64,000 nt of DNA from Tabrizicola sp. (GTDB taxonomy: Bacteria; Pseudomonadota; Alphaproteobacteria; Rhodobacterales; Rhodobacteraceae), in NCBI RefSeq assembly GCF_022842145.1, contig NZ_JALHQD010000001.1:316127-380126 (forward strand). Reading direction: 5' to 3'. Below, in pieces: positions 35,814 to 52,769 of the stretch. The notes under the pieces were generated by a model, which saw only the letters and a program-made list of their open reading frames with translations, was not told where the DNA came from and ran no database searches. The position numbers and the translations under genes were made by a program. Every line of letters begins with the position of its first letter. Within the stretch, counting starts at the first letter, position 1.

Positions 35814-37838
35814 TTAAAGCCTTGCCGCCAGGCGCGCCGCCTGATCAATGGCGCGCTTGGCATCCAGTTCAGACGCGACATCCGCCCCGCCGATCCGGTG
35901 ATGGCGGATGCCGCGCCGCTCCAGCTCGGCCGACAGCCCTCGCTCGGGTTCCTGTCCTGCACAGAGAACCACCGCGTCGACCGCAAGCAGTTCTTCCCCT
36001 TCGCGGTTCGGCCCGTGGCTGATCACCAGCCCGTCAGCCGTGATCCGTTCATAGTTCACGCCGCCCTGCATCTTCACCCGCTTCATCGCCAGGCTGGCGC
36101 GGTGGATCCATCCCGTCGTCTTGCCCAGGTGCCGACCCGGCTTTTCCGCCTTGCGTTGCAGCAGATACACCTCGCGCGCCGGAGGATGCGGTTGCGGTCC
36201 CGCCGGCTCCAGCCCGCCACGATCCTCCCACGGTGCCGAGACGCCCCATTCGGCGCGCCAAAGGCCTGGGTCCAGCGTCGGGCTCACCCCATCCTGCACC
36301 AGCGTCTCGGCCACATCGAAACCGATCCCGCCCGCACCCACCACGGCCACCCGGCGCCCCACGGGGGCACCCTTCAGCACGTCGATGTAGGACAGGACCT
36401 TCGCCCCGGCCTCCACCACGATGCCCGGATCACGCGGGGTCACGCCGGTGGCGATCACCACCTCGTCGAAGCCTTCCAGATCCTCTGCCCCAGCCTCACG
36501 GCCCAGCCGCAATTCGATCCCCGGCCCGCGCAGCATGGTGGCGAACCAGTCGACCAGCCCGTGGAACTCTTCCTTGCCCGGCACCTGACGCGCCAGGTTC
36601 AACTGGCCGCCAACCTGTTCGGCCTTGTCGAACAGCGTGACCTGGTGTCCGCGCTGGCTCGCGACGATGGCCGTCATCATACCGGCCGGACCGGCCCCCA
36701 CGACAGCCACCCGTTTCGCCACCTCGGCGGGCGTATAGGCAAGCTCCGTCTCATGGCAGGCCCGCGGGTTCACCAGACAAGATGTCAGCTTGCCGCTGAA
36801 GGTATGGTCGAGGCAGGCCTGGTTGCAGGCGATGCAGGGCGCTATTTCGGCGGCGCGGCCCGACGCGGCCTTGGCGATGAAATCCTGATCCGCCAGCCAG
36901 GGCCGGGCCATCGACACCATGTCCGCCGCACCAGAGGCCAGGAGCCCCTCGGCCACCTCCGGCGTATTGATCCGGTTTGAGGTAATCACGGGAATCGAAA
37001 CCTCCGGCCGCAGCCGCGCCGTCAGATGCGCGAACCCCGCCCGGGGAACCGATGTCGCAATCGTGGGCACCCGTGCCTCGTGCCAGCCGATGCCGGTGTT
37101 CAGCACCGAAGCCCCGGCCGCCTCGACCGCCTTTGCCAACTGGACCACCTCGTCCCAGGTGGACCCCTCCGGCACTAGGTCGATCAACGAAATGCGATAG
37201 ACCAGAACGGCCCCCGGACCCATCGCCGCGCGCACCCGCCGGACAACCTCGACCGGTAGCCGCATCCGGTTCTCGTAAGCCCCGCCCCATGCGTCCGTGC
37301 GGCGGTTGGTGTGGGTGACCAGGAACTGGTTCAGAAAGTACCCTTCCGACCCCATCACCTCGACCCCGTCATACCCGGCCTCGATGGCTCGCGCTGCTGC
37401 CGTTGCGATGTCGGCGATCTGCTTCTCGATCCCATCCTCGTCCAGCTCGCGCGGCGGGAAGGGCGAGATCGGCGACTTCACTGCCGAAGGTGCCACACAT
37501 TCCTTGCCATAGGCGTAGCGCCCCGCGTGCAGGATCTGCATCGCGATCAGCCCGCCCTCGGCATGGACGGCGTCCGTCACCCGCCGGTGATTGACGATGT
37601 CCTGATCGGTGAACAGCCCCGCCGCTCCCGGAAACACCCCGCCTTCCCGGTTCGGAGCCATGCCGCCCGTCACGATCAGCCCCGCGCCACCCTTCGCCCG
37701 CGCCGCGTAGAAGGCGGCGACCCGACCCCAATCCCCGGTCTCTTCCAGCCCCGTGTGCATCGAGCCCATCAGGCTGCGGTTCCTCAGTGTCACTCCGCCA
37801 AGGGTGATCGGCGACAGAAGGTGCGGATAGTCGGTCAT
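35814..37838 (-). CDS. fadH: NADPH-dependent 2,4-dienoyl-CoA reductase type flavoprotein
   Basis: A 674-residue enzyme of full length. Residues 1-370 form the FMN-binding old-yellow-enzyme barrel (LSPITLGGVTLRNRSLMGSMHTG). The 4Fe-4S cluster Cys are in CIACNQACLDHTF plus a Cys near CLVNP (about residues 338-358). An FAD motif VAVVGAGPAGMMTAIVAS lies near 385 and an NAD motif VAVVGAGGIGFDVAETLV near 505. The family reduces 2,4-dienoyl-CoA in unsaturated fatty acid breakdown; trimethylamine dehydrogenase and histamine-type enzymes are related alternatives. Confidence 0.9.
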   Translation of the reverse strand: MTDYPHLLSPITLGGVTLRNRSLMGSMHTGLEETGDWGRVAAFYAARAKGGAGLIVTGGMAPNREGGVFPGAAGLFTDQDIVNHRRVTDAVHAEGGLIAMQILHAGRYAYGKECVAPSAVKSPISPFPPRELDEDGIEKQIADIATAAARAIEAGYDGVEVMGSEGYFLNQFLVTHTNRRTDAWGGAYENRMRLPVEVVRRVRAAMGPGAVLVYRISLIDLVPEGSTWDEVVQLAKAVEAAGASVLNTGIGWHEARVPTIATSVPRAGFAHLTARLRPEVSIPVITSNRINTPEVAEGLLASGAADMVSMARPWLADQDFIAKAASGRAAEIAPCIACNQACLDHTFSGKLTSCLVNPRACHETELAYTPAEVAKRVAVVGAGPAGMMTAIVASQRGHQVTLFDKAEQVGGQLNLARQVPGKEEFHGLVDWFATMLRGPGIELRLGREAGAEDLEGFDEVVIATGVTPRDPGIVVEAGAKVLSYIDVLKGAPVGRRVAVVGAGGIGFDVAETLVQDGVSPTLDPGLWRAEWGVSAPWEDRGGLEPAGPQPHPPAREVYLLQRKAEKPGRHLGKTTGWIHRASLAMKRVKMQGGVNYERITADGLVISHGPNREGEELLAVDAVVLCAGQEPERGLSAELERRGIRHHRIGGADVASELDAKRAIDQAARLAARL

Positions 37839-37901: not shown

Positions 37902-39275
37902 TCACAGGACCACCACCTGCGCGGGGTCCAGAAGCCAGGGCGCGATGATGCCGCAAGTGTCGGCCAGGGGCAGCAGGCTATTCGGCACATCCATTCCGAT
38001 CACCCGACGCATGAACTCGGCCCGCAAGGCACAGCGCCGCGCCGCGTTCGGGTGCTTTTGGGCCAATTCCTCCCGCAGGCCCTCGTCCGCGATGACATAG
38101 CCGTCCTCCATCCGGGTCGAGCCCCAGCGTGGATGCGCCGGGATCACGTCCATCTGCATCGCCATGCCCGAGGCAAGGGGGATGCCCGACTCCGGCATGA
38201 TGGGCGAGGACATCCATTCGTCGAGGCCGATCAGGTGGCCGGGGTTCAGCGTGATGCCGAAATCGGCCGGCAAACGGTCATGGATCATCGCCCAGACCGC
38301 GCCCCCGGCCACGCCCGGCCGCATCATCCCGCACCAGTCCGACATCGCTTGCGTGTAAGGATAGACGAATTCCTCCAGGTATCCCGCCGCCGATGCCGGC
38401 AGGTCTTCTGCCCCCCGCGCCATCCAGCCCGCGCGGCAGATGTTCGATCCCCAATGCGCGATATTGAAGCTGGCAGGAACGCCCCGCCTGATCCGGTCGC
38501 CAACCGGCCCGGACAGGCCCGGCGTGTCGCCCATCGCGAAGGTCGAATGACAGCCCAACGGCAGGCCTCCCACCCGCGCCGCCTCGACGGCCGCGAAGTC
38601 GGTCATTCCTTCCCGGAAGGCGAAGACCATCCGGCGCAAGGCCGCCGCGGCCATGTGGTTCGAAAACTCCAGCCGCGCGATCTCGTTCGCGGTCACCCGG
38701 GCCCGCAGCCCATGGGCGGGATGCATGAAAATTGCAGTGGCATTCTCGACCCGCCCGGCACGCTGGCGCAGCGGATCGGCCAGGAAAGCCGGGATGTCCA
38801 GCGCCAGCGCCGGGTCCTGGCCGGGGGCAAGCTCGTCCGAGCCATACCATTTCCATCCCACTGCCCCGACCTTCGCTCCCGCTGGAACCAGCTCGTCCAG
38901 CCATTCCCAAAGCCGACGCGACCCTCGCGGCTGGCTGGGCAACGACAACGAGGCGCAAAGCCCGGTCCGCACCTGCCCGGCTGCGACCAATGGCGAGACC
39001 ACCGTGTAGGCCAGGCACTCGTTCCCCGCGATCAGCAGGGCATCACCCTCGGTCACGACCAGCACCGCCTCTTCGAAGCGCGGGTCAAACCCGGTCAGCC
39101 AATGCAGGTTCGCCGCATGCTCCCGGTCACCATAGACCACCAGCGCCGCATAGCCCGCCGCCGACATCGCCGCCCTGACCGCAAGAAGCCGCGCCTCGGC
39201 CTCCGCAAGCGTGAAAGGCGGCGGCAGGTCCGGCGTTCCGTGGTCCGGCCAGTCCAGGCGTTGCAGTCGCGTCAT
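37902..39275 (-). CDS. M24-fold (creatinase/prolidase-like) protein without the metal Asp pair
   Basis: A 457-residue protein with the creatinase N-terminal domain (AARLLAVRAAMSAAGYAALVVYGDREH, about residues 25-55) and the pita-bread domain after about 195. The position that carries the two metal Asp in peptidases reads SFNIAHWGSNICRAG, with Asn at both likely places. His in LNPGHLIGLDEW is kept, the first Glu is Asp in MQMDVIPA, and the last Glu in RMEDGYVI is kept. Creatinase also lacks the metal Asp residues. It may be a metal-independent hydrolase rather than a dipeptidase. The substrate is unknown. Confidence 0.75.
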   Translation of the reverse strand: MTRLQRLDWPDHGTPDLPPPFTLAEAEARLLAVRAAMSAAGYAALVVYGDREHAANLHWLTGFDPRFEEAVLVVTEGDALLIAGNECLAYTVVSPLVAAGQVRTGLCASLSLPSQPRGSRRLWEWLDELVPAGAKVGAVGWKWYGSDELAPGQDPALALDIPAFLADPLRQRAGRVENATAIFMHPAHGLRARVTANEIARLEFSNHMAAAALRRMVFAFREGMTDFAAVEAARVGGLPLGCHSTFAMGDTPGLSGPVGDRIRRGVPASFNIAHWGSNICRAGWMARGAEDLPASAAGYLEEFVYPYTQAMSDWCGMMRPGVAGGAVWAMIHDRLPADFGITLNPGHLIGLDEWMSSPIMPESGIPLASGMAMQMDVIPAHPRWGSTRMEDGYVIADEGLREELAQKHPNAARRCALRAEFMRRVIGMDVPNSLLPLADTCGIIAPWLLDPAQVVVL

Positions 39276-39858: not shown

Positions 39859-40920
39859 TTAGTTCACCTCGGCTGCGCGGTCAGCAGCGACAGCTGTTTC
39901 TGCAGATGCTACGGCCGCTGTGAATGCGTCCAGCACTTCTGATCCTCCTTTTACGTTCGCCTTGAACCATTCGAAGACCGGCTCCACCGCGGACTTAAAG
40001 GCGGCCTTCTCCTCGGCGGTCGGCACGTAGATCTCACCGCCAGCTGCGCGGAAATCGGCATAGGCCTGGATTTCCTTGCGCTTGGGGCTGGCGAAGGTCG
40101 CCTGTTGCAGAGCAGCAAAGCCATCGACGACGATCTGCTGCTGTTCCGGTGTCAGCGCCTTGAAGCGATCGTTGCCCATCCACCAGAAGGCGCCCATGTA
40201 GCTGTGGCCGTCGAGCGTCAGATACTTGATGCCGGCGTCGGTGAACTTCATCGACATGATGTCGGTTATCCCGTTTGCGGTGCCTTCCACGACCCCGGTC
40301 TGCAGCGAAGTGAACAGTTCCGGCCACGGGATCGGCGTGGGCGATGCGCCCAGCGTCGTGGCCAGCGTCTGCGGCAGGTCAGCGGGGACCGTGCGCATCT
40401 TCAGCCCGGCCAGATCACCTGGGGCTGCAATCCGCTTCTTGGTGTTGGCGTAGTTCCGCCAGCCGCCGGTGTTGCCGATGGTCATCAGCCGGATCTTGTC
40501 GCCCGAGTCTGCCAGCGCCATTGCGCGCAGCTTGGCGGTGAAGTCGGTACCGGTCAGCACCTCTTCGGCCACGCGGTCATCCGACATCAGGTAGGGCAGA
40601 TCAAGGACCTGGATATAGGGGAACAGACCAGCCGCGCCGCCCGAGGTGGAGATGTAGATGTCGATCGTGCCATCGGCCACGCCCGCCAAGCACTCGTCGC
40701 CCTTGGCGCAGATCTGGGTGCCCATGAAGATTTCCACACCGATGGCACCGTTCGAGGCGTTCTCGACATAGTTCTTGAACACGACGAGACCGTCGTAATC
40801 CTCGTCCTGTTCGTTCGAATTTGCGGTGGCGCGCAGCATGATGTCCTGCGCCAGGGCCGCCCCGGCGGTGCCCGCCAGAAGCGCCGCCAGCGCAAGGGAT
40901 TTCAGGGATGATTTAAACAT
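39859..40920 (-). CDS. dctP: TRAP transporter substrate-binding protein DctP
   Basis: A 353-residue periplasmic binding protein of the DctP family. A signal peptide ends at AGAALAQ (about residue 24). The ligand-anchoring Arg is likely in LKMRTVPADLPQTLATTLGASPTPIPWPELFTSLQTG near residue 175, the family hallmark. It also has VVEGTANGITDI and EEKAAFKSAVEPVFEW near the end. TRAP binding proteins carry acidic ligands, including the sulfonates taurine, isethionate and dihydroxypropanesulfonate. Last gene of an operon with dctMQ and the monooxygenase genes, so a sulfonated sugar ligand is proposed (inference). Confidence 0.92.
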   Translation of the reverse strand: MFKSSLKSLALAALLAGTAGAALAQDIMLRATANSNEQDEDYDGLVVFKNYVENASNGAIGVEIFMGTQICAKGDECLAGVADGTIDIYISTSGGAAGLFPYIQVLDLPYLMSDDRVAEEVLTGTDFTAKLRAMALADSGDKIRLMTIGNTGGWRNYANTKKRIAAPGDLAGLKMRTVPADLPQTLATTLGASPTPIPWPELFTSLQTGVVEGTANGITDIMSMKFTDAGIKYLTLDGHSYMGAFWWMGNDRFKALTPEQQQIVVDGFAALQQATFASPKRKEIQAYADFRAAGGEIYVPTAEEKAAFKSAVEPVFEWFKANVKGGSEVLDAFTAAVASAETAVAADRAAEVN

Positions 40921-40956
40921 GGTTCCTCCTTTTGGTTTCTTGTCGGCGTTGAAAGG

Positions 40957-42246
40957 TCAGTCCACGAACCCCAGAAGTCGGGGCAGGGTCAGGGAAATGG
41001 CCGGGATGTAGGTGATGAGAAGGATCACCAGGAACTCCACAGCCAGAAACGGCATGACGGCGCGGGCGATGGTTTCCACCCTCAGGCCCGAGACGGCCGA
41101 GGTGGCAAACAGAACCAGTCCCATCGGGGGGGTCAAAAGGCCGACGGTCAGGTTCACCACCATCACGATGGCGAAGTGCACCGGGTCGACACCCATCGAC
41201 GCAAAGATCGGACCCAGGATCGGACCGAGGATGATGATCGCAGGCCCGGCGTCCAGGAACATGCCGACGACGAACAAGAGGAGGTTCACCAGCAGCAGCA
41301 GCAAAAGCGGATTCTCGGTGATGCTGAGCAGCGTCGAGGCCAAGAGTTCCGGCGTGTGTGCCAGCGCTGCCACGGTCTTGAAGGCCATCGCCGCGCCGAC
41401 CAGCAGCATGACGACCGAACTGGTGATGCCCGCGCGGGTCAGCACACCCGGGATGTCACGCCAGGTCAGGGTCTTCAGGACGAAGATCGAGATGATGAAG
41501 CTGTAACCCACTGCGACCGCAGCCGCCTCGGTCGGGGTGAAGACGCCCGACAGGATGCCCCCCATCAGGAGGATCGGGGTCATCAGGGGCCAGAAGGCGG
41601 CGGCACCGGCGCGGGCCGCATCGACCCAGGTTGCACGAGGCTGGGCGGCGGGCAGCTTGTAGCGGTCGGCCATAAGCTTGATCGTGATCATCAGCGCGAT
41701 GCCGATCAGCACACCCGGCACGATCCCGGCCAGAAAAAGCGCCGCGACGCTTTCGCCCATCACGTAGGCGTAGATGATCATGATGCCCGACGGCGGGATG
41801 ATCGGGCCGATGATCGCGCTTGCGGCGGTAATCGCGGCGGCGAAGGGCTTGGGATAGCCCTTCTTTTCCATCTGCGGGATGATGATCGACCCCAGCGCCG
41901 AGACATCGGCCACCGCCGAGCCCGAGATCCCCGCAAAGAGCATCGAGTCGACCACGTTCACCTGCGCCAGCCCGCCCCGGAAGTGGCCGACCATCGCCTG
42001 GGCAAACCCGACGATCCTGGCCGAGATGCCGCCGCGGTTCATCAACTCTCCGGCCAGCATGAAGAACGGGATCGCCATCAGCGGGAACGAGTTCATCCCT
42101 TCATAGACGTTGCGGTAGAGAAGCGTGATGTCGCGTTCCTGCCCGTTCAGCCACAGAAGGATCGCGGGGGCCGCCAGAAGGCCAAAGACCACCGGCAGGC
42201 CCAGCATCAGGAAAACCAGGAACAGGGGAAGGAAGAAGCTGAGCAT
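40957..42246 (-). CDS. dctM: TRAP transporter large permease DctM
   Basis: A 429-residue membrane protein with about 12 hydrophobic helices, the usual DctM length. Typical segments are NSFPLMAIPFFMLAGELMNRGGIS near residue 52, SMLFAGISGSAVADVSALGSIIIPQM near 100 and AAITAASAIIGPIIPPSGIMIIYAY near 137. It forms the Na+-coupled channel of the TRAP system with DctQ. Directly abuts the dctQ stop. Confidence 0.94.
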   Translation of the reverse strand: MLSFFLPLFLVFLMLGLPVVFGLLAAPAILLWLNGQERDITLLYRNVYEGMNSFPLMAIPFFMLAGELMNRGGISARIVGFAQAMVGHFRGGLAQVNVVDSMLFAGISGSAVADVSALGSIIIPQMEKKGYPKPFAAAITAASAIIGPIIPPSGIMIIYAYVMGESVAALFLAGIVPGVLIGIALMITIKLMADRYKLPAAQPRATWVDAARAGAAAFWPLMTPILLMGGILSGVFTPTEAAAVAVGYSFIISIFVLKTLTWRDIPGVLTRAGITSSVVMLLVGAAMAFKTVAALAHTPELLASTLLSITENPLLLLLLVNLLLFVVGMFLDAGPAIIILGPILGPIFASMGVDPVHFAIVMVVNLTVGLLTPPMGLVLFATSAVSGLRVETIARAVMPFLAVEFLVILLITYIPAISLTLPRLLGFVD

Positions 42247-42843
42247 CTATTCCGCCCCCGATCCCAGAGTGATCGTCCCGGCAATCGCGCGCAGTGGCTC
42301 CGGCCCCCAGACCAGGGCGTAAAGGTTGCGCAAGGTCAGCTCGACCGCGACCAGCAGCAGAAGCGCCACGCCGACCAGAAGCGAGGCCATCATCCAGGAC
42401 TTCGGAACCTTCATCCAGACGCCAAGGTCCAGGCTGACCGGCACGCGAAGCGAGTCCGTCTCGAACCGACCGCCAAGGCCCGTGACCTCGGACCAGCCGA
42501 TGCCAAGAGCGATCCAAAGGACCAGGATCGTCACGGCCATCAGGAAGACCGACAGCCCGGTTGCGACAAGGCGCGGCAGAAGGCGGATCACCATGTCGAT
42601 GGCAACGAAACCGCCGCGCCGGAAGGCGGTCGGGGCCATCAGGGCGGTGGACCACATCATCAGGAACCGCGAGGCTTCTTCGGGCCAGGGCAGGGCGTTG
42701 TTCAGGACGTAACGGAAGAAGACTTGCGCCAGGATCACCACGACCATCAGGCCAAGGCAGACAGCGCCGACCCAGCGGCCAAGCGCCAGAAACGCGCCGT
42801 TGATCAGGCCCAGGCCGTTGCAGATGGCCAGAAGTGCGGTCAC
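42247..42843 (-). CDS. dctQ: TRAP transporter small permease DctQ
   Basis: A 198-residue protein with four membrane helices. ALPWPEEASRFLMMWSTALMAPTAFRRGGFVAIDM near residue 55 is the standard DctQ signature between helices 2 and 3. The loop between the last helices is longer than usual (about residues 120-145). Partner of DctM. Confidence 0.92.
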   Translation of the reverse strand: MTALLAICNGLGLINGAFLALGRWVGAVCLGLMVVVILAQVFFRYVLNNALPWPEEASRFLMMWSTALMAPTAFRRGGFVAIDMVIRLLPRLVATGLSVFLMAVTILVLWIALGIGWSEVTGLGGRFETDSLRVPVSLDLGVWMKVPKSWMMASLLVGVALLLLVAVELTLRNLYALVWGPEPLRAIAGTITLGSGAE

Positions 42844-42878
42844 GTCTCCTCCCTTCGCCCCCTCTCCCTGGGGGTGTT

Positions 42879-43388
42879 TCAGCCGGCAAAGCCTCCGAAC
42901 CTGCCTTTCGCGAAAACCAGCGGCTCGCCCTCCTCCAGGGCCAGCCGCAGGACCTGTCCCACGATGATCAGATGGTCGCCGCCGTCATGCGTCGCGTGCT
43001 GGGCGCAGTCGAAGCGGGCAAGGGCACCGGCCAAGGTCGGCACCCCCTCGGCGTTCACCTGCCAATCAAGCCCTTCGAAGCCCAGGCCGCCCCGGGACAA
43101 CCGGGCAGGCAACTCGGCCTGGTGCTGCCCCAGAACGTGGATGGCGTAATGCCGTGCTGCCACAAAGAACGGATAGCGCTGCGAGGCCTTGGCCGGCGAC
43201 CACAACACCAGGGCGGGGTCCAGTGACAGGCTGGCGAAACTGTTGGCCGTGAAGCCCATCGGACCGTCCGGCCCCATAATCGTGACCACCGTCACTCCGG
43301 TGGCAAAGCGCCCCAGCGCATCGCGGAAGACCCGCGCGTTGGCGGCGTCGGGCACGATCTCTGTCGTGTAGATGCCGCCATCCGCCAT
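42879..43388 (-). CDS. flavin reductase, proposed FMNH2 supplier of the SsuD-like monooxygenase (SmoA-like)
   Basis: A 169-residue flavin-reductase-like protein. It has FRDALGRFATGVTVVT near residue 20, GFTANSFASLSLDPALVLWSPAKAS near 45 and the GDH motif in HDGGDHLIIVGQV near 140. It reduces FMN with NAD(P)H for two-component monooxygenases. The start overlaps the aldo/keto reductase stop by one base. The order flavin reductase-AKR-SsuD-like matches SmoA-SmoB-SmoC of the sulfoquinovose monooxygenase (sulfo-SMO) pathway, which is the basis for the assignment. Confidence 0.85.
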   Translation of the reverse strand: MADGGIYTTEIVPDAANARVFRDALGRFATGVTVVTIMGPDGPMGFTANSFASLSLDPALVLWSPAKASQRYPFFVAARHYAIHVLGQHQAELPARLSRGGLGFEGLDWQVNAEGVPTLAGALARFDCAQHATHDGGDHLIIVGQVLRLALEEGEPLVFAKGRFGGFAG

Positions 43389-44284
43389 CAGGCCACCTCA
43401 TGCCCCTGGGCGAGCGTCAGAAGCTCGAACCAGGTCTGGCGGTCCATCGGCACGCGCTGCGCGTCCGAGATCGTGGCTATGCGCGACAAGGTGTTGGTGC
43501 CGAGGACGGGAATGATCCTTGCCGGATGATGCAGAAGCCAGGCCACGGCGACGGCGGTCCAATCGGTGCCTGCCGCCTTGCCGATTGCGTCCAGCCGGGC
43601 GCTGAGACCGTCATTCGCCTCGGCGCGTAGGTGGCCACCGGCCAGCGGGCTCCAGGCCATCGGGGCAATCCCGCGTTCCTGCAGGAAAGCGAGATCGCCG
43701 TTGGTAAAGGGGTCACGGCAGTTCAGCGACAGTTCGATCTGGTTGGTCACCAAGGGCTGCGACATGGCCGATTGCAACAGCGAGACATCCCACGGTCGGA
43801 AGTTCGACACGCCGACGGCCCGCACCTTCCCGCTGGCGACAAGGGCATCCAGCGTGCGGCCCGTCTCGTGGTGGTCCATCAAGGGGTCGGGGCGGTGGAT
43901 CAGCAGCAGGTCGATCCGGTCCGTCGCCATCTCGCGCAACGACGCTTCAACCGACGCCGTGATATGCGCAGCCGTAGTGTCGTAGTACTTCACCCGCGCG
44001 GCCGAGTGGCGACCCACCGGCGCGACGATGTCGCATTTGGTGACGATCTCGATCCGGTCGCGCAGACCCGGAGCGGCCCGCAGCGCCGCGCCCAGCAGCG
44101 TCTCGGCGGTGTAGCCCCCGTAGATATCAGCCTGGTCCATCGTGGTGATGCCCTGCGCCAGGCAAGCCTCGACCTTGGCCTGCACATGGCCCGGCGACGT
44201 ATCGGGATCATCGCCCAGGCGCCACATGCCGTATACTAGGCGGGACATCGTGATCTGCCCCAGGGTGACACGTTCCATCGTCAT
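43388..44284 (-). CDS. aldo/keto reductase, proposed 6-dehydroglucose reductase (SmoB-like)
   Basis: A 298-residue TIM-barrel reductase related to YdhF. The catalytic tetrad is visible: Asp and Tyr in TTMDQADIYGGY near residues 47-52, Lys in IVTKCD near 80 and His in LLLIHRPDPL near 127. The NADPH-binding end is PVLGTNTLSRI near 265. In the sulfo-SMO pathway an AKR reduces 6-dehydro-D-glucose to glucose after desulfonation; the gene order supports that role here. Start at 44284 overlaps the stop of the monooxygenase gene; ATG 44278 is an alternative. Confidence 0.85.
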   Translation of the reverse strand: MTMERVTLGQITMSRLVYGMWRLGDDPDTSPGHVQAKVEACLAQGITTMDQADIYGGYTAETLLGAALRAAPGLRDRIEIVTKCDIVAPVGRHSAARVKYYDTTAAHITASVEASLREMATDRIDLLLIHRPDPLMDHHETGRTLDALVASGKVRAVGVSNFRPWDVSLLQSAMSQPLVTNQIELSLNCRDPFTNGDLAFLQERGIAPMAWSPLAGGHLRAEANDGLSARLDAIGKAAGTDWTAVAVAWLLHHPARIIPVLGTNTLSRIATISDAQRVPMDRQTWFELLTLAQGHEVA

Positions 44285-45441
44285 CAACGGCGCACTCCGG
44301 TTCCAAGGGGGGTGGCGGGGGGCGACGACGGGACCCGGCCATAGGCATGAGGCAAGGAGCAGGTCTTGAGGCCGGGCATCACTTTGGTGCCGAAATGGTC
44401 GCACTCGTCCAGATGCGGATAGCCCGAGAAGATGAAGGCCCGGATACCCATTGCCCTATACTCTTCCAGTTTGGACATAACCTGATCGACCGATCCGACA
44501 AGCGCCGCCCCGCAGCCCGACCGCGCCCGCCCGATCCCGGTCCAGAGGTGGGGCTCGACGTAGCCGAACTGGTCCGCCAGTTCCCGCGCCTGGGACTGAT
44601 GCGCGACGCCAAGGCTGATCGAGTCATGCGCCCGGTCGCGGATCATGCGCCCATATTCGTCGTCCAGCTTGGACACGATGTAGTCGGCATAGTCCCGTGC
44701 CTCGGCTTCGGTGTCGCGCACGATCATGTGGACGCGCAGCCCGTAATCCAGCGTCCGGCCATGCGCGGCGGCGCGGGCGTGAACGTCCTGCATCCGCTTG
44801 GCGAGCATCTCCTTGGGCTCCGGCCACATCAGATAGACGTCGCATTGCGCACCGCAAAGCTCCAGCGCGTCAGGGGAATAGCCGCCGAAATACAGAAGCG
44901 GCCCGCCGTTCTGCTGGTAGGGCCGAGCGGGGTCTGTGGTGATCTTGGAAATCTGGTAGACGTCGCCCGCATACTCGATGTGGTCGCGCGTCCAAGCCTG
45001 ACGCAGGATCTCCACAACCTCGTGGCTGCGCTTGTAACGATAGGCGCTGTCGGCGACCTCTCCCGGGAAATCTGATGAAATCACGTTCAACGTTAGGCGC
45101 CCCTGCAGCATGTGGTCCAGCGTGGCGACCGTGCGGGCCAGCATCACGGGCTGCATCTCGCCGCAGCGGATGGCGGCGAGAAAGTTGATGCGGTCGGTGA
45201 TCGGCGCGCAGCCCGCGACGAAGGACAGCGTATCCTGCCCCACCTGATACGAGGACGGGCAAAGGATGTTGCGGAACCCGTGGCCTTCAGCCCGCTTCAC
45301 GATCGACGAGCAATGCGCCCAGCTTGAGCGCAGGTCACCGTCCGGCACGCCGAGGAACTGGTAGTCGTCCGAACACAAAGCAGCAAACCAGCTGACCTCG
45401 CAGGCGTCCAGGTCAGGCGAGGTGATCGGGACGACCGACAT
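44284..45441 (-). CDS. SsuD-like FMNH2-dependent sulfonate monooxygenase, proposed sulfoquinovose monooxygenase (SmoC-like)
   Basis: A 385-residue LLM-class flavin monooxygenase. SsuD-like segments are NILCPSSYQVGQDTLSF near residue 47, GRLTLNVISSDFPGEVADSAYRYKRSHEV near 110 and, near 310, LWTGIGRARSGCGAALVGS followed by FIFSGYPHLDE. It should cleave a C-S bond of a sulfonate, releasing sulfite and an aldehyde. ATG 45441 starts a good N-terminus; the extra 20 residues of the longer frame would use the operator. First gene of the six-gene minus operon that ends with dctP. The substrate is inferred from gene order. Confidence 0.85.
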   Translation of the reverse strand: MSVVPITSPDLDACEVSWFAALCSDDYQFLGVPDGDLRSSWAHCSSIVKRAEGHGFRNILCPSSYQVGQDTLSFVAGCAPITDRINFLAAIRCGEMQPVMLARTVATLDHMLQGRLTLNVISSDFPGEVADSAYRYKRSHEVVEILRQAWTRDHIEYAGDVYQISKITTDPARPYQQNGGPLLYFGGYSPDALELCGAQCDVYLMWPEPKEMLAKRMQDVHARAAAHGRTLDYGLRVHMIVRDTEAEARDYADYIVSKLDDEYGRMIRDRAHDSISLGVAHQSQARELADQFGYVEPHLWTGIGRARSGCGAALVGSVDQVMSKLEEYRAMGIRAFIFSGYPHLDECDHFGTKVMPGLKTCSLPHAYGRVPSSPPATPLGTGVRR

Positions 45442-45486
45442 GATTCTCTGTCTCCGGCTGCGGCTTTCCTCTTGCGTAGCACTGGC

Positions 45487-45502
45487 ATTGATGTAGATCA
45501 AT
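45487..45502. promoter_or_regulatory. GntR-type operator candidate
   Basis: Perfect palindrome ATTGAT-GTAG-ATCAAT in the 87-bp gap between the divergent monooxygenase and gntR genes. A third ATCAAT follows at 45508-45513 as a direct repeat (ATCAATCATG, ATCAATTATG). The size and A/T content fit HutC/GntR operators; it would control both directions. Confidence 0.5.
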
Positions 45503-45528
45503 CATGTATCAATTATGGATGCGACGGA

Positions 45529-46230
45529 ATGGCTCACCCTGGATCGCTGCCGCTGTATCAGCAGATCGCCGAACTTCTGATCCGCGACATCGCGGCCGGT
45601 CGTTTGATCGATGGCGAGCGATTGGCGCCAGAACGGGACATGGCGGCAAACCTTGGGATCGCGGTCGGAACGCTGCGGCAGGCGCTGAAGTCATTGACGG
45701 AAAAGGGTCTTCTGGACCGGGTACAGGGGTCGGGCAACTATATCCGGGCCAAGGCGGACGCAGCTTCGGTCTATGCGCTGTTCCGGCTGGAGCGGGTGGA
45801 AGGCGGCGGCTTGCCCACCGCGCGCGTGCTGTCGGTGGACCGCTGCACCAAGAACCCCGCCCTGCCTGCGTTCGGCACCAGCACCGAAGGCCACCGCATC
45901 AGACGCCTGCGCTTCCTGTCCGGCCGGGTCGCCGCGGTCGAGGAGATCTGGCTCGACGGGGCCGAGGTGGACCGGATCGCCCCCGGAGACCTGTCCGAGT
46001 CGCTCTACCTTTACTACCGCCAGCGCCTCGGGATCTGGATCTCGCGCGCCGAAGACAGCATCGGCCAGGGCCCCCTGCCCTCTTGGGCCCCATCCGAATT
46101 TCCCCACCCGCCGGGCACGGCCCTGCCGCTGATCACCCGCGTCAGCTGGGCGCAGGACGGCCGTTCGGTCGAGGCCTCGCTGACCTGGTATGACCCCGCA
46201 ACCGTGCGCTATGTCGCGCGCCTGAAATAG
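45529..46230 (+). CDS. GntR family regulator with UTRA effector domain
   Basis: A 233-residue HutC-type regulator. The winged helix-turn-helix covers residues about 5-72 (LPLYQQIAELLIRDIAAGRLIDGERLAPERDMAANLGIAVGTLRQALKSL). The UTRA effector domain covers about 85-230 with RIRRLRFLSGRVAAVEEIWLDG and SLYLYYRQRLGIWISRAEDSI. ATG 45529 was chosen; the longer frame runs through the operator. Probably a repressor released by a sugar or sulfonate ligand. The following Gfo/Idh/MocA gene lies 10 bases downstream. Confidence 0.9.
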   Translation: MAHPGSLPLYQQIAELLIRDIAAGRLIDGERLAPERDMAANLGIAVGTLRQALKSLTEKGLLDRVQGSGNYIRAKADAASVYALFRLERVEGGGLPTARVLSVDRCTKNPALPAFGTSTEGHRIRRLRFLSGRVAAVEEIWLDGAEVDRIAPGDLSESLYLYYRQRLGIWISRAEDSIGQGPLPSWAPSEFPHPPGTALPLITRVSWAQDGRSVEASLTWYDPATVRYVARLK

Positions 46231-46240
46231 GACGAACCAA

Positions 46241-47356
46241 ATGCTGCACTACGGGATCATCGGTTGCGGGATGATGGGGCAGGAACACCTGCGCAACATT
46301 GCCCTTCTGGAAGACGCCTCGGTCGCCGCGATCTTTGAACCCGACGCCGGCATGCGCGCCGCCGCCGCCGCCTTGATGCCTGGCGCGCGGATGGTGGGTT
46401 CGGTGGCCGAAGTTCTGGCTGTGCCGGAGGTCAACTGCCTGCTGATCGCCAGCCCCAACCACCTCCATCTTGGCCAGGTGGAGGAGATCGCGCGCATCCG
46501 CCCGCTGCCGGTCCTGTGCGAAAAGCCGCTCTTCACCAATCCCGCCGATGCCCCGCGCCTTGCCGCCCTGCGCGCCGCCTACCCCGCGCCGATCTGGGTA
46601 GCGATGGAGTACCGCTACATGCCCCCCGTCGCCCATCTTCTGCGCGAGGCGCGGGCCGCGACGGGCGGGGTGAAGATGCTGACCATCCGCGAACACCGCT
46701 TTCCCTTCCTGCAAAAGGTCGGTGACTGGAACCGGTTCAACCGGAATACCGGTGGCACTCTGGTCGAAAAATGCTGCCACTTCTTCGACCTCATGCGCCT
46801 TGTTGCAGGTTGCAACCCGGTCAGCGTCATGGCCAGCGGTGGGCAGGCAGTAAACCACGTGGACGAGGTCTACGCCGGACAGCGATCCGACATCTGGGAC
46901 CATGCCTATGTGATCGTCGACTTCGAAAACGGCATGCGGGCGATGCTGGAACTGTGCATGTTCGCCGAAGGTAGCCGCTATCAGGAGGAAATCTCGGCTG
47001 TGGGACCCAAGGGCAAGATCGAGTGCCTCGTGCCGGGCCCGGGACGGTTCTGGCCCGCCCATCTGGGCGCCCCCCCGGTGCCCAAGGTCATCGTTAGTCC
47101 GCGCAGCCCCGCCGGACCCGTGGAGCTGGATATCCCCGTTGATCCCGCTTTGTTGGCAGCCGGTGACCACAACGGATCTACCTTCTTCCAGCATCAGGGC
47201 TTTCAACGGGCAGCTATAGGGATGCAGGAACCCGAGGTTTCGCTGAACGATGGTTGGTGGGCCGTCGCAATGGGACAGGCGGCCCAGGAAAGTGCAAGGT
47301 CTAGCCAATTGGTAAGTCTCGACAATATACCCTACACACCCAGACTCACGGCCTAG
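46241..47356 (+). CDS. Gfo/Idh/MocA family protein, possible NAD-dependent sulfoquinovosidase (GH188-like)
   Basis: A 371-residue protein. The Rossmann domain (residues 1-120) has IIGCGMMGQEH and the CEKPLFT motif near 92 with the conserved Lys. The C-terminal domain has VAMEYRYMPPVAHLL, REHRFPFLQKVGDWNRFNRNTGGTLVEKCCHFFDLM (residues near 145-185) and IWDHAYVIVDFENG. The GGTLVEKCCH variant differs from the GGGxLxDxGxH of ordinary sugar dehydrogenases. NAD-dependent sulfoquinovosidases of family GH188 belong to this superfamily and occur in sulfoquinovose clusters, so that role is plausible but unproved. Co-operonic with gntR. Confidence 0.75.
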   Translation: MLHYGIIGCGMMGQEHLRNIALLEDASVAAIFEPDAGMRAAAAALMPGARMVGSVAEVLAVPEVNCLLIASPNHLHLGQVEEIARIRPLPVLCEKPLFTNPADAPRLAALRAAYPAPIWVAMEYRYMPPVAHLLREARAATGGVKMLTIREHRFPFLQKVGDWNRFNRNTGGTLVEKCCHFFDLMRLVAGCNPVSVMASGGQAVNHVDEVYAGQRSDIWDHAYVIVDFENGMRAMLELCMFAEGSRYQEEISAVGPKGKIECLVPGPGRFWPAHLGAPPVPKVIVSPRSPAGPVELDIPVDPALLAAGDHNGSTFFQHQGFQRAAIGMQEPEVSLNDGWWAVAMGQAAQESARSSQLVSLDNIPYTPRLTA

Positions 47357-47880: not shown

Positions 47881-50241
47881 ATGGAAGATATCGGCCACTA
47901 CGGCATGCATCATGACCGTCTGGTCAAGATCATCGAGGATTCGACAGGCGAGATTTTCATCTTCCGGCATGATGACTTCCGCTTTGTCTTCATGAACCGC
48001 GGGGCGCAGGAAAACCTCGGGTACTCTGCCAAAGAGCTCCTCGAAATGAGCCCCCTCGACATCAAGCCGCTGTTCACCGAGGAGACGTTTCGCGCTCTGG
48101 TTGAGCCCGTTGTCACTGGGGCCGTGGGCCACATTGACTTCGAGACCTTGCATCGGCGCAAGGACGGGACGACCTACGGCTGCGCCATCCGGCTGCAGTT
48201 GATCGCCGGGGATGAGCCGCTGTTCTATGCCTCGGTGCTCGACATTTCCGACCGCATGGTTGCCGAGAACGAGCTGCGGGAAACCTCCCAGCGCCTGAAT
48301 GCGATTCTGGCAAACACCACGATGGCCGTCTTCCTGATGGATGAACGGCAGCATTGCGTTTTCATGAACCGGGCAGCCGAACAGCTGACCGGATACACGC
48401 TGGCGGAGACGGTGGGACGCCCGTTGCACGACGTCGTGCACCACACCCACCCCGATGGCACGGCGTTTCCCATCGAGGACTGCGCCATCGACCGTGCCTT
48501 GCCAGAGCGGATGCAGATGCAGGGCCGTGAGGTCTTCGTCCACAAGGACGGGCATTTCTACAATGTGGGCTTCACCGCAAGTCCGATCCTTGATGCCAGC
48601 GGCCGCCCGGTGGGCACCGTCATCGAGGCGCGCGACATCGCCGAGGAGCTCCGGGCCGAGGCCAGGGCGAAGGCCTTCAACGAAGAGCTGGCCGAACAGG
48701 TCAGCCTTGCCGTGGCGGAGCGGGAGGCGCTGACCCGGCAGCTCATCCAGTCGCAGAAGATGGAAGCTATCGGCAACCTGACCGGCGGGATCGCGCATGA
48801 CTTCAACAACCTTCTGCAGGTCGTTTCCGGGAACCTTGACCTCCTCGCGCGGATGGTCCGTGGAGATGAGCGCGCGACGGCCCGGGTCGAGGCGGCACGC
48901 GCCGGCGTGGTGCGCGGCGGGCGGCTCGCCTCGCAGCTTCTGTCCTTCGCAAGGCGGCAGCCGCTCCAGCCCCTGGTCCTGAACGCCGGCAGGTTGATCC
49001 GTGGCATGAACGAAATGCTTCGCAGCACTCTTGGTGAGGCCGTGGAGCTTGAGTGCGTGATCGCGGGCGGTTTGTGGGCGACCGCCATCGACGCGACGCA
49101 ACTTGAGAGCGCCTTGCTGAACCTCGCGATCAATGCCCGCGACGCGATGGACGGCCAGGGCAAGCTCACCATCGAGGCCGGCAACGCACATCTCGATGAC
49201 TCTTATTGCCGAGAACATGTGGATGTCCTGCCAGGACAGTATGTGGTGATCGCTGTCACCGATACCGGTCCCGGCATGACCCTCGAAGTGCAGGAGAAGG
49301 CGTTTGAGCCCTTCTTCACCACCAAGCCCGAGGGGCAAGGCACAGGCCTGGGCCTGAGCATGGTGTATGGCTTCGTCAAGCAATCGGGCGGGCACATCAA
49401 GATTTACACCGAGCAAGGCGAAGGCACGACCATACGCATCTACCTGCCCCGCTCGGGCGAGCAGGAGGCCGCACTCCCCACCAGGTCTGACAAGCCCCCG
49501 GTTGGCGGGACCGAAACCATCCTGGTCGTGGACGATGATGACGAGGTTGCCGCCACGGCTGTCGCGATGCTGACGGATCTTGGCTACAGCGTCGTCAAGG
49601 CGCGGAGTGCGGATGCGGCCCTGACTGTCCTGGAAAGCGGGATACACATTGACCTGCTCTTCACAGACGTCGTCATGCCCGGAAAGTTGCGCAGTCCCGA
49701 ACTTGCGCGGCTGGCAAGGGTACGGCTTCCCGGGATCAAGGTGCTCTTCACATCCGGCTACACCCAGAACGCGATCGTCCACGGCGGGAAACTGGACCGT
49801 GACGTCGAACTGTTGAGCAAGCCCTATTCCAGCGACGCCCTCGCCTGGAAGGTCCGGTCGATGCTTGGGGAAGCGGCATCTCCCGTGCCGAACACGCCAG
49901 TCAAGCTGCGGATCCTCGTGGTAGAGGACGATGCCTTGATCCTGATGTCGACGGTCGACATGCTGATGGACTTGGGCCACGAGGTCGAACAGGCGATGAA
50001 CCTCGCACAGGCTCGGGTTGTTGTTGCATCCAAGTCGATCGATCTAGTTCTCGTCGACGTAGGTCTGCCGGACGGCAACGGACTGGACTTCGCGCATCAG
50101 CTGCGCGAGCAGCAACCCAAGCTAAGGATAATTGTTGCCTCCGGGCATAGGGTTGAGGCCAGCGAAAACCTGGGCGTAATCCAGAAACCTTACATGGAAG
50201 CCGATTTGGCGTCAGCTATTGGCTTTCTCTTCGGAAAGTGA
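47881..50241 (+). CDS. hybrid PAS sensor histidine kinase with two receiver domains
   Basis: A 786-residue cytoplasmic kinase. PAS 1 lies at about 10-125, PAS 2 at about 135-255 ([22 protein letters not shown]) and the HisKA domain at about 285-350 with the phospho-His in [11 protein letters not shown]. HATPase follows at about 395-525 ([31 protein letters not shown]). REC 1 is at about 540-655 (ILVVDDDDE, Asp in LFTDVVMPG, Lys in LLSKPY) and REC 2 at about 670-785 (ILVVEDDA, Asp in [12 protein letters not shown], Lys in VIQKPY). There is no membrane segment and no output domain, so output must go to a separate phosphotransfer or response partner. No partner gene is adjacent. Confidence 0.92.
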
Positions 50242-50461: not shown

Positions 50462-51295
50462 CTAGACCTCGAAAATCGCCACCAGGAAGCGGAGGCACAC
50501 CGCTGCCAGAAAAAGGCCAAACATCAGTTCCAGATTTCGGCGGCTCAGCCGGTGCGCAAGCGCCACGCCAAAACGCGTGGTCAGGAGCGATGTCGGGATA
50601 GTCAGAGCAAACGTCGCCAGTGAAACAAAGCCTATCGCATCCGATGGAAGGTCCGCACGGCCCCAACCTGCGGCCATGTATCCCAATGTGCCCGGGATGG
50701 CGATCAGCACGCCCACTCCGGCGGATGTCGAGACGGCCCGATGGATTGGCACGTTGTGCAAGGTGAGGATAAGGTTCGACACTGCACCGCCACCGATGCC
50801 CATGAGCGCCGAGACCAAACCCACACCAACGCCATAGGTCCGCAGGACTGGTTTTGCGGGCAGGCTGTCGCTCAGCCGCCAACCCGATCCACCCGAGAGA
50901 AGTTTCGCCGCATTCACGGCAGCCACGGCGGCAAAGACCAGTTGGAAGACCTGCGGCTCGGCATAGCGGGCGATGACCGAGCCGACGGCCACGCCCAGCA
51001 GCACTGGCAGCACCCAAGCCCGCAACAAGTCCATGTCCACCGTCCCGCGCAGGAAATGCCCGCGCGAGGACTGGATGGACGTCGGAATGATCACCGCCAG
51101 CGAAGTGCCGACAGCCATAGGCATCGCCACTTCCGGCGCGTGGCCAAGCGACTGGAAGACCTCGTAGAATACGGGGACCGAGATCGCCCCGCCTCCGATG
51201 CCGAAAAGACCGGCCAGAAAACCGATCAGCGCCCCGGCCACCGCGAGCGCGGCAATCAAGGGAAGAAGTGTCGCGGGGTCCAGAATATCGGTCAC
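50462..51295 (-). CDS. TauE/SafE family sulfite/anion exporter
   Basis: A 277-residue membrane protein with about eight helices in two repeats, each with the family motif: AGLFGIGGGAISVPVFYE near residue 26 and SALMGIGGGAVSNLILTL near 168. The GTG start at 51295 overlaps the stop of the dehydrogenase gene as GTGA; the longer frame would read through that gene. TauE/SafE proteins export sulfite, sulfoacetate or similar organic anions. It is the last gene of the FAH-RraA-dehydrogenase operon. It may also relieve sulfite released by the SsuD-like monooxygenase 5 kb away (inference). Confidence 0.85.
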   Translation of the reverse strand: MTDILDPATLLPLIAALAVAGALIGFLAGLFGIGGGAISVPVFYEVFQSLGHAPEVAMPMAVGTSLAVIIPTSIQSSRGHFLRGTVDMDLLRAWVLPVLLGVAVGSVIARYAEPQVFQLVFAAVAAVNAAKLLSGGSGWRLSDSLPAKPVLRTYGVGVGLVSALMGIGGGAVSNLILTLHNVPIHRAVSTSAGVGVLIAIPGTLGYMAAGWGRADLPSDAIGFVSLATFALTIPTSLLTTRFGVALAHRLSRRNLELMFGLFLAAVCLRFLVAIFEV

Positions 51296-52158
51296 TTCCC
51301 CGCCGCCCGCCGCGTCAGGCTGGCGCCATCGAAGCCGCCAAGTCCGGCGGAAAGCGCCGCCGCATAGCGGGACTGGACTGATCGGGACAGGGGCATCTCT
51401 GCGCCCTCGGACTCGCCGAGTCGCAGGGCAAGTCCCAGGTCCTTGGCCAGCCCGGCGATATCGAAGGTTCCGGGCTGGTCGGTCCCGGCCAGGGAGTCGA
51501 CCACGATCTGTGCGCGGTTCTTCAGCACTGTGGGACCGGCGGAACTGTCGGCGATCAGGCTGATCGCCAGATCGTCCGGCACTCCTGCACCGCGAAGAAG
51601 CGCAAGGCTTTCGCCTAGCACTTGCCAGTAGATCGCCAGCGGCAGGTTCACCGCCAGCTTCATCCGCGCCGCCGCCCCGACCGTCCCTAGATGCTCGACG
51701 CGGCGGCACAACTGGCCCAGCACAGGCTTTGCCCGGTCAAAGGACGTCGCAGTCCCGCCGGCCATACCCAAAAGCTGGCCCTTCAGTGCCGGCGCGACCG
51801 TGCCGCCCACCGGACAATGCACGAAGTCGGCCCCGGCCACCTGCGCCATTGCCGCCAGACCCTCGGCCTCGTCGGGCAGAAGCGTGGACATCTCTATGAC
51901 CATCCGCCCCTGCAGACCGGCAATGGTCAGGCTGCGCAGGACCGATTGCGATGCGGCGGCATCGGTCAGCGACAGGAGGATCACGTCGCACTCTGCCAGG
52001 TGCGCCAGATCCACCGCCTCGGCCCCCGCCGACACGGCCGCGGCTGTCCGCGCTGCGTTGCGGTTCCAGACCTGGACCTTGTTGCCCGTCTCGATCAGTC
52101 GGCGGGTGAAGGCGGTGCCCATCCGGCCGGTCCCCGCAATCCCGATTGCAACGGTCAT
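51292..52158 (-). CDS. 3-hydroxyisobutyrate-dehydrogenase-like NAD(P)-dependent oxidoreductase
   Basis: A 288-residue beta-hydroxyacid dehydrogenase. The N-terminal Rossmann motif is GIAGTGRMGTAFTRRLIETGNKVQVWNRN, the substrate segment HCPVGGTVAPALKGQL lies near 116, and the catalytic Lys is in GTVGAAARMKLAVNL near 170. Residues after 175 are the helical C-terminal domain. It oxidises a 3-hydroxy acid or reduces the corresponding semialdehyde. Overlaps both neighbours by 4 bases in an FAH-RraA-HIBADH-TauE operon. Confidence 0.88.
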   Translation of the reverse strand: MTVAIGIAGTGRMGTAFTRRLIETGNKVQVWNRNAARTAAAVSAGAEAVDLAHLAECDVILLSLTDAAASQSVLRSLTIAGLQGRMVIEMSTLLPDEAEGLAAMAQVAGADFVHCPVGGTVAPALKGQLLGMAGGTATSFDRAKPVLGQLCRRVEHLGTVGAAARMKLAVNLPLAIYWQVLGESLALLRGAGVPDDLAISLIADSSAGPTVLKNRAQIVVDSLAGTDQPGTFDIAGLAKDLGLALRLGESEGAEMPLSRSVQSRYAAALSAGLGGFDGASLTRRAAGK

Positions 52159-52769
52159 GATGTTGCCTTTCCTGACAGTCCAAGGATCGAAAGCGTCGTC
52201 TCGCCCTTACGCAATCGCCCCATGATCCGGGCTTCGCGCTCGGCGCGAGTTCGGGCTGCGTCCAGCGCCGGGGCAAGGTCCCCGGCCGAAAGGACAAGGA
52301 TGGCGTCGGCGTCGGCAAGGACAAGGTCGCCCGCCGCAATCTCGACCCCGCCCAGTATGACCGGCATCCCGATCCGACCGGCATCCTGCTTTACCGTGCC
52401 GCGGATGTTCACGCCGCGCGCAAAGACCGGGAATCCCAGGTCCGCAATCTGCGCGCTGTCCCGCACGGCGCCGTCGATGACCAGGCCGGCGATCCCACGC
52501 ATCTGGCAAGCTAGCGCCATGATCTCACCGAAGGGGCCGCTGTCCAGACTGCCGCCATAGTCGACCACCAGCACGTCGCCCGGCCGGGCCACGGCTATCG
52601 CAAGATGCAGCGCGAGGTTGTCACCGGGTCGACACCGGACGGGAAGCGCCGTCCCCGCCAGGGTCATTCCCAGTGCCAGCGGCCGGATCGGTGCCAAGAC
52701 CAGCCGAGCGGCCGGCCATGCCTCGCCGACCGTGGCCGTGCCAAGTGCCAGAAGGTCCGGCGGGCTCAC
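52155..52769 (-). CDS. RraA-like (HMG/CHA aldolase-fold) protein
   Basis: A 204-residue protein of the RraA/4-hydroxy-4-methyl-2-oxoglutarate aldolase family. It contains PGDNLALHLAIAVARPGDVLVVDYGGSLDSGPFGEIMALACQ near 60-100 and GLVIDGAVRDSAQI with the D-G-x-x-R-D motif near 110 that binds the metal and substrate. GGVEIAAGDLVLADADAILVL follows. Likely a class II pyruvate aldolase or oxaloacetate decarboxylase rather than an RNase E inhibitor. The GTG start 52769 overlaps the preceding stop (GTGA). Confidence 0.83.
   Translation of the reverse strand: MSPPDLLALGTATVGEAWPAARLVLAPIRPLALGMTLAGTALPVRCRPGDNLALHLAIAVARPGDVLVVDYGGSLDSGPFGEIMALACQMRGIAGLVIDGAVRDSAQIADLGFPVFARGVNIRGTVKQDAGRIGMPVILGGVEIAAGDLVLADADAILVLSAGDLAPALDAARTRAEREARIMGRLRKGETTLSILGLSGKATS

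Follow-up and report, generated by a model that had tools for sequence, protein, structure and literature searches.

A predicted sulfo-SMO locus of Tabrizicola combining a GH188-type sulfoquinovosidase with a TRAP transporter, the proposed importer of sulfoquinovosyl glycosides

Introduction

The DNA analyzed here is a stretch of 64,000 nucleotides from Tabrizicola sp. (contig NZ_JALHQD010000001.1, positions 316,127 to 380,126), referred to in its entirety as the window. Between positions 39859 and 47356 it harbors what is very probably a locus of the sulfoquinovose monooxygenase (sulfo-SMO) pathway for sulfoquinovosyl glycosides, in which a sulfoquinovosidase of glycoside hydrolase family 188 (GH188) is combined with a tripartite ATP-independent periplasmic (TRAP) transporter, DctPQM, that would import sulfoquinovosyl glycerol (SQGro) and/or sulfoquinovose (SQ). 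We further consider it likely that DctPQM serves sulfoquinovosyl glycosides as a dedicated TRAP importer, corresponding to the ATP-binding cassette (ABC) transporter SmoEFGH but driven by a gradient, and that it forms a module, usually partnered by GH188, which moves between two unrelated routes, the oxygenolytic sulfo-SMO pathway and an Embden-Meyerhof-Parnas-like (sulfo-EMP-like) one.

SQ is a sulfosugar of plants and algae. Its annual output has been put at about 10 billion tons (PMC10755693), and bacteria of the Roseobacter clade and their relatives have been named among its degraders (PMC13372026, PMC12890257). No report of a TRAP system for SQ was found in the literature searched, nor is the uptake route of SQ glycosides in these degraders stated there; figures and supplements lay outside the search and an earlier drawing is possible. 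Neither PMC13372026 nor PMC10755693 contains the word transporter in its main text. The one paper naming both sulfoquinovose and a TRAP transporter, PMC10507020, concerns taurine and sulfolactate.

Results

Organization of the locus

Six genes follow one another on the minus strand, from 45441 down to 39859, in the transcription order smoC-smoB-smoA-dctQ-dctM-dctP. The gaps between them measure at most 36 bases and the open frames overlap by one base at the smoC/smoB and smoB/smoA junctions, an operon-like arrangement (the start codons of smoC and smoB were picked by eye). Divergent from smoC, on the plus strand, lie gntR and sqgA. The flavin reductase, aldo/keto reductase, SsuD-like monooxygenase and DctPQM genes named in an initial annotation of this DNA are all present as minus-strand open frames, and the transporter genes do belong to the same operon as smoA, smoB and smoC and are conserved with them in relatives. 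Pfam and NCBIfam concur on the domains of the operon proteins, DctQ being assigned by Pfam alone. Gene content, gene order, orthology and conservation can thus be read from the sequence itself, as can the glycosidase contacts and the sharing of the transporter described below.

The SmoC of the window is 96% identical to that of Tabrizicola aquatica (locus L032; loci and genomes used for comparison carry L numbers). Four plasmid records (L112, L113, L114 and L117) carry annotated genes in the same order, and a fifth, the Qingshengfaniella alkalisoli plasmid L115 (10001-14310), does so in part: it has smoC, gntR and the TRAP genes but lacks smoB, smoA and sqgA in the 21 kb shown. This conservation excludes a chance arrangement. 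A further record, L116, contains only a 50% relative of SmoC and no cassette. The plasmid of the root-nodule bacterium Rhizobium sp. SL42 (L112, 7999-16885) carries the entire cassette, with 53-83% identity gene by gene, which suggests transfer between orders.

The oxygenolytic enzymes

The smoC gene (44284..45441, minus strand) encodes a predicted FMNH2-dependent sulfoquinovose monooxygenase of 385 amino acids with a Bac_luciferase domain. Its product is 82.3% identical (316/384; 749 bits) to PDB entry 7olf and 81.2% identical (312/384; 740 bits) to 7oh2, and reaches only 201 bits against the solved SsuD. The PDB molecule names of these two entries are methanesulfonate sulfonatase and alkanesulfonate monooxygenase; we take both to be SmoC of the sulfo-SMO pathway. 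The product of smoB (43388..44284, minus strand), an Aldo_ket_red protein proposed to act as 6-dehydroglucose reductase, is 73.3% identical (217/296) to PDB entry 7bby; 7bby and 7bbz score 478 bits, YdhF 199. Entry 7bby, named aryl-alcohol dehydrogenase in the PDB, is presumably SmoB of the same pathway. The flavin reductase required by the pathway is provided by smoA (42879..43388, minus strand; Pfam Flavin_Reduct, 117 bits; best PDB match 4xhy, 183.5 bits), assigned at the domain level and not as an ortholog of a tested SmoA; against NCBIfam FerA it scores 230.7 bits, below the cut-off of 260. All three kinds of enzyme expected in a sulfo-SMO cluster are present: a SmoC-type monooxygenase, a SmoB-type aldo/keto reductase and a flavin reductase.

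As a member of the SsuD/SfnG superfamily, SmoC could be taken for a sulfur-scavenging enzyme, a simple monooxygenase of alkanesulfonates or dimethylsulfone. The comparisons make this extremely improbable. SmoC falls far below the NCBIfam equivalog cut-offs for both SsuD (241 against 518 bits) and SfnG (143 against 383 bits), and its identity is 36% to L201, an SsuD of the same genus that does exceed the SsuD cut-off (579.7 bits), as opposed to 82% to 7olf. In a tree of 107 sequences made by a quick method (35 of the 107 rows being unlabelled, and L116 excluded), L201 was placed apart from all 105 SmoC-type rows and, like L002, had a very long branch. The sulfo-SMO reading advanced in the initial annotation is therefore borne out, and a grouping of SmoC with SsuD or with dimethylsulfone monooxygenases, which had been raised there as the contrary outcome, appears not to hold.

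In the same tree, the SmoC of the window lies within a supported set of 48 rows that includes L104 and L065. In L104 (Aliihoeflea aestuarii; SmoC about 80% identical), the adjoining ABC binding protein matches 7nbz, which the PDB names sulfoquinovosyl glycerol-binding protein SmoF, at 456 bits. In L065, a Rhizobiales genome with a SmoC about 81% identical, the adjoining GH31 protein matches YihQ entries (5ohs at 1205 bits, and 5aed, whose chain also bears the name sulfoquinovosidase, at 718 bits). These SmoF-like and YihQ-like neighbors tie the SmoC clade to SQ. By extension from characterized relatives, the enzymes of the locus would convert SQ to glucose and sulfite.

A GH188-type sulfoquinovosidase

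The initial annotation did not discuss a glycosidase. The divergent gene sqgA (46241..47356, plus strand) encodes a Gfo/Idh/MocA protein that looks like a GH188-type, NAD+-dependent sulfoquinovosidase. Its best PDB match is 8zn9 (527 bits), followed by 8qc2 and 8qc3 (351-360 bits). With 8QC2, a GH188 crystal structure (PMC11465081), SqgA shares 49% identity over 357 columns. The residues of 8QC2 reported to contact SQ are K107, Y136, R166, L170, K172, E189, H193 and H321 (Kaur et al. 2023, PMC10755693). In the alignment all eight are kept in SqgA, as K95, Y124, R153, L157, K159, E176, H180 and H310. Hydrolysis of SQ glycosides with NAD+ is thus what its sequence predicts. Since SqgA begins directly at the Rossmann fold, with no signal peptide apparent by eye, the enzyme would be cytoplasmic, and a glycoside would then have to be imported intact. 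The divergent arrangement of the operon and a GH188-type gene makes a glycoside the likely cargo.

The association of these enzymes with GH188 is itself already known, because GH188 is reported to be near-universal in roseobacter sulfo-SMO clusters (PMC10755693). For comparison, we assembled 80 related loci, the best 80 of 88 retrieved with peptides of the query itself, which makes them a biased sample. Among them, sqgA is present in all 29 TRAP-bearing loci. A GH31 sulfoquinovosidase query gave no match in the Tabrizicola genome, in a search made without positive control, and neither the ABC importer for SQGro nor the GH31 enzyme of Agrobacterium-type smo clusters occurs in the operon, among the divergent genes or in the neighboring genes that were examined.

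An alternative would be a sulfo-SMO-like route for a different sulfonated sugar, such as sulfofucose or some other 6-sulfo-sugar. A separate sulfofucose pathway has been described in a Paracoccus strain (PMC12421959), and SMO enzymes could tolerate stereoisomers. We regard this as very unlikely: SqgA keeps eight of eight SQ contacts, SmoC is 82% identical to 7olf and has relatives linked to SmoF- and YihQ-like genes, and the same transporter recurs in clusters with SQ-isomerase-like genes (see below). The described sulfofucose clusters, moreover, had ABC transporters and other enzymes (PMC12421959).

Linkage of DctPQM to the sulfo-SMO genes

The TRAP set is complete, all three components being above the Pfam cut-off: the small permease DctQ (42247..42843; Pfam DctQ, 78.6 bits; no NCBIfam match), the large permease DctM (40957..42246; Pfam DctM, 393 bits; TIGR00786, 429 bits, above cut-off) and the solute-binding protein DctP (39859..40920; Pfam DctP, 177 bits), proposed to bind SQ or SQGro and having a signal-peptide-like start by eye; all are encoded on the minus strand. 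To follow the pair in the family, 395 genomes were surveyed for SmoC (E up to 1e-80) and for a DctP ortholog (E up to 1e-100). SmoC was found in 166 and the DctP ortholog in 148, all but one of the latter at 64% identity or more; 115 genomes had both, 51 SmoC alone, 33 DctP alone and 196 neither. Coordinates of SmoC were available for 153 of the 166 genomes and missing for nine of the 115 with both genes, leaving 106 in which the distance could be measured. In 101 of these, DctP lies 4.37-5.10 kb from SmoC on the same contig. The remaining five have the two genes on separate contigs; of these, L214 and L215 look genuinely unlinked, and L216, L217 and L218 end at contig breaks.

The TRAP arrangement is thus common among the sulfo-SMO loci of the family and not a rarity. 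The initial annotation had suggested either a new transport variant or a pathway for a different sulfonated sugar. The transport variant is strongly supported, as a probable one shared by 115 of 166 SmoC genomes. The GH188 contacts and the shared TRAP system speak against the different sugar.

A census of the 80 related loci with TRAP, major facilitator superfamily (MFS), ABC and sodium:solute symporter (SSS) queries gave TRAP genes in 29, MFS alone in seven, ABC genes of two kinds in two and three, and an SSS gene in one; in two loci MFS accompanied TRAP. The ABC counts vary with the threshold (three in one census; two and three of two kinds in the other, which includes a match in L084 at 10 kb from smoC). 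Loci of insufficient length for assigning a transporter numbered 18 in the former census and 15 in the latter. The SmoC tree requires at least eight changes of the TRAP label along supported branches, indicating that the enzymes are stable and the transporter is exchanged.

A conserved MFS-like gene, assigned by eye, lies beyond sqgA in TRAP-less clusters (L043, 5660-6895, with similar positions in L039, L045, L047, L051, L052 and L055) and alongside TRAP in L048 and L050; it is a candidate alternative SQ transporter. In L064, a Hyphomonas metagenome-assembled genome, a sodium:solute-symporter-like gene (12545-14257) directly follows smoA, as judged by eye.

The same transporter in a second set of apparent SQ genes

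Loci were examined from all 33 genomes with the DctP ortholog and no SmoC match. In 23 of them (L167, L169-L177, L179, L181, L182, L184, L187, L189-L191, L193 and L196-L199), DctPQM is accompanied by an SQ-isomerase-like enzyme, a PfkB-type kinase and a tagatose-bisphosphate-type aldolase, and every one of the 23 also carries GH188. Of the window genes searched for in these loci, none but the TRAP genes and GH188 recur. The aldolase matches PDB entry 8tnf (306 bits) as well as tagatose-bisphosphate aldolases, and the GH188 protein scores 373 bits against 8qc2. The L181 cluster includes a DeoR-type regulator, and other such loci add aldehyde dehydrogenase and mutarotase genes. We use the name sulfo-EMP-like for this route since it has a tagatose-bisphosphate-type aldolase, where sulfo-EMP2 is described as having one of class II (PMC9594981).

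As to the other ten loci, L188 has the isomerase, kinase and GH188 with no aldolase match, and five keep some smo genes: smoB in L168, smoA in L186, smoB and smoA in L192, gntR, sqgA, smoB and smoA in L185, and gntR and sqgA in L194. The last four (L178, L183, L195 and L200) have neither the sulfo-EMP-like set nor smo genes, apart from a kinase match in L195, whose DctP is the outlier at 53% identity; contig ends limit what can be seen in L178 and L200. Overall, GH188 is found in 26 of the 33.

In a tree of 46 DctP sequences (22 from sulfo-SMO and 24 from sulfo-EMP-like contexts, that of L048 being shortened by the end of the locus) and one outgroup, the context changes six times (6-8 in bootstrap trees), at least five of the changes being forced by supported branches, and not one of 200 bootstrap trees keeps the two contexts apart. 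At 136 of 353 DctP positions, the residue is the same in at least 45 of the 46 sequences of both contexts. If two unrelated routes exchange one transporter and share GH188, their common substrate would be SQ or its glycosides. Judged from context, this linkage to two SQ gene sets is the best evidence for DctPQM as an SQ/SQGro importer.

Could the transporter carry other cargo?

The enzymes might degrade SQ while the TRAP system, a mere neighbor, carries something else (a C3 sulfonate, a sugar acid or a dicarboxylate) and SQ enters by another way. A PDB sequence search with DctP returned distant relatives only (best 4p47, 119 bits; IseP, 8t9t, only 95 bits), and the ligand cannot be read from homology. 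DctP residues R155, R176 and N216, invariant in a 40-row alignment, align with Arg152, Arg173 and Asn213 of 4P47. This Arg/Arg/Asn triad is the anion-binding, usually carboxylate-binding site of the TRAP binding-protein family, and in IseP the equivalent residues Arg156, Arg177 and Asn217 hold the sulfonate of isethionate (PMC11668362).

Several observations weigh against our proposal. By its sequence, the triad suits a carboxylate as well as a sulfonate, and the AlphaFold2 model of DctP (from 16 sequences) is poor, with a mean predicted local distance difference test score of 67.6 and values below 50 for residues 152-238, and gives no evidence on the pocket. The 51 of 166 SmoC genomes that lack a DctP ortholog at the threshold used indicate that the sulfo-SMO pathway does not need DctP. 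MFS, ABC or SSS genes stand near smoC in other loci, and 23 of the 80 related loci, long enough to judge, contain none of the transporters used as queries. The association of SmoC with DctP (Fisher odds ratio 13.4, p 1.6e-29) is calculated without regard to shared ancestry. In L214 and L215, DctP lies apart from SQ genes on contigs long enough to show them, and L183 has no SQ gene in 20 kb. For the second gene set, the sole NCBIfam match of the L181 isomerase (E up to 1e-8) is the SQ isomerase SftI at 279 bits, well below the cut-off of 700, and the L181-type isomerase found no match in a PDB sequence search. On the enzyme side, the assignment of PDB entries 7olf, 7oh2 and 7bby to SmoC and SmoB is presumptive. 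In the Tabrizicola genome, finally, eight proteins matched as sugar-ABC-type binding proteins, of which the best is 37% identical to the SmoF-like protein of L104; they could leave room for another route of entry.

Against a neighbor with other cargo stand the tight linkage of SmoC and DctP (within 5.1 kb in 101 of 106 genomes), their position in one operon, and the presence of the same TRAP system in the second set of apparent SQ genes. In our estimation it is unlikely, and the import of SQ or its glycosides by DctPQM remains the preferred reading.

The divergent promoter

The regulator encoded by gntR (45529..46230, plus strand) belongs to the GntR/UTRA family by its Pfam domains, and a gntR homolog adjoins smoC in 76 of the 80 related loci, with no match in L073, L077, L080 and L105. 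In the divergent promoter lies the site AATTGATACATGATTGATCTACATCAA (45488-45514, minus strand), which occurs once in the window at 0 mismatches and in none of the shuffled sequences; a 20-base core of it is found once in the 4.33 Mb genome with one mismatch allowed. By eye, the site overlaps a -35-like hexamer of smoC. Its right half is more variable than its left.

A shorter core, ATTGATNNANNATTGAT, lies no more than 200 bases upstream of smoC in 65 of the 80 loci: in 28 of the 29 with TRAP (two of which also have MFS), in all seven with MFS alone, in the single one with SSS, and in one of five with ABC. It is still present in L185 and L194, which have lost smoC and kept gntR, sqgA and the TRAP genes (L194 being also without smoB and smoA). 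The 15 loci without it include the TRAP locus L089 and the ABC loci L084, L096, L102 and L104. That four of the five ABC loci, a more distant group, lack the core weighs against a universal operator role. From its sequence and conservation, we propose the element, AATTGATACANNATTGATCTACATCAA (45488..45514, minus strand), as a putative GntR operator.

Flanking genes

The conservation of the flanks was checked in 86 loci, over up to 10 kb on each side, many being shorter. Four genes considered as further parts of the locus were rejected. Downstream of dctP, an OYE/FadH-like gene (35814-37838, minus strand) and a weakly matching M24 peptidase-like gene (37902-39275, minus strand) had no match in the 86 loci. 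A hybrid histidine kinase gene (47881-50241) and a TauE/SafE sulfite exporter family gene (50462-51340, minus strand), about 3 kb from sqgA, had one match each, at 29% (L039) and 28% (L102).

A putative sulfate exporter gene (Cons_hypoth698) follows dctP in L042, L058, L112 (15926-16885), L113 (15841-16848) and L117 (15703-16728), where it is a plausible sulfite outlet. No such gene adjoins dctP in the window, where the M24-like gene is the next long open frame; the rest of the Tabrizicola genome was not searched for an exporter. Farther along (51295-54711), genes for a 3-hydroxyisobutyrate-dehydrogenase-like protein, an RraA-like protein, an FAA hydrolase and an NMT1-type binding protein are adjacent to one another, with no link to the locus seen.

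Discussion

TRAP transport is driven by an ion gradient. In the mechanism that we propose, DctPQM would use it to import SQGro and/or free SQ, and cytoplasmic SqgA, with NAD+ as a catalytic cofactor, would release SQ from the glycoside. SmoA would provide reduced flavin to SmoC, which with O2 would split the C-S bond to yield sulfite and 6-dehydroglucose; SmoB would then reduce the latter to glucose. The GntR/UTRA regulator may govern both sides of the divergent region through one operator. The reactions are assigned by analogy with characterized relatives. The ligand of the transporter, the function of the operator and the preference for a glycoside over free SQ as the main cargo are what we infer beyond that.

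The enzymes and their GH188 link were already known, and TRAP import of SQ is deduced from sequence context. The part new to a specialist would be the reuse of one TRAP system by a second apparent SQ pathway. If the proposal is correct, DctPQM could prove to be the sulfosugar uptake system most often linked to sulfo-SMO in the family (115 of 166 SmoC genomes) and, within the literature searched, would be the first TRAP system for a sulfosugar, extending TRAP substrates from small sulfonates to sulfosugars. A DctP ortholog together with GH188 would mark the use of SQ even in genomes without SmoC. A TRAP system shared by two SQ gene sets is a concrete candidate importer.

The locus can be compared with four known systems. 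The sulfo-SMO (sulfo-ASMO) cluster of Agrobacterium tumefaciens, SmoA-SmoI, has the same monooxygenase, aldo/keto reductase and flavin reductase, and a C-S cleavage to sulfite and glucose (PMC9594981, PMC12890257) that the present locus is predicted to share; here, TRAP DctPQM takes the place of the ABC importer for SQGro, and GH188 that of the GH31 sulfoquinovosidase. The GH188-bearing sulfo-SMO clusters of the Roseobacter clade (Kaur et al. 2023, PMC10755693) combine the same enzymes with GH188; neither transporter nor TRAP occurs as a word in the main text of that paper, whose figures or supplement may draw TRAP genes. IseP, the isethionate TRAP binding protein (PMC11668362; PDB 8t9t), belongs to the same family as DctP and holds a sulfonate ligand with an Arg/Arg/Asn triad, but that ligand is a C2 sulfonate, whereas a sulfosugar or its glycerol glycoside is proposed for DctP. 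SmoF, the SQGro-binding protein (PDB 7nbz), has the role proposed for DctP in an unrelated class of transporter (ABC, SBP_bac_1); a relative of it adjoins SmoC in L104 but not in the window.

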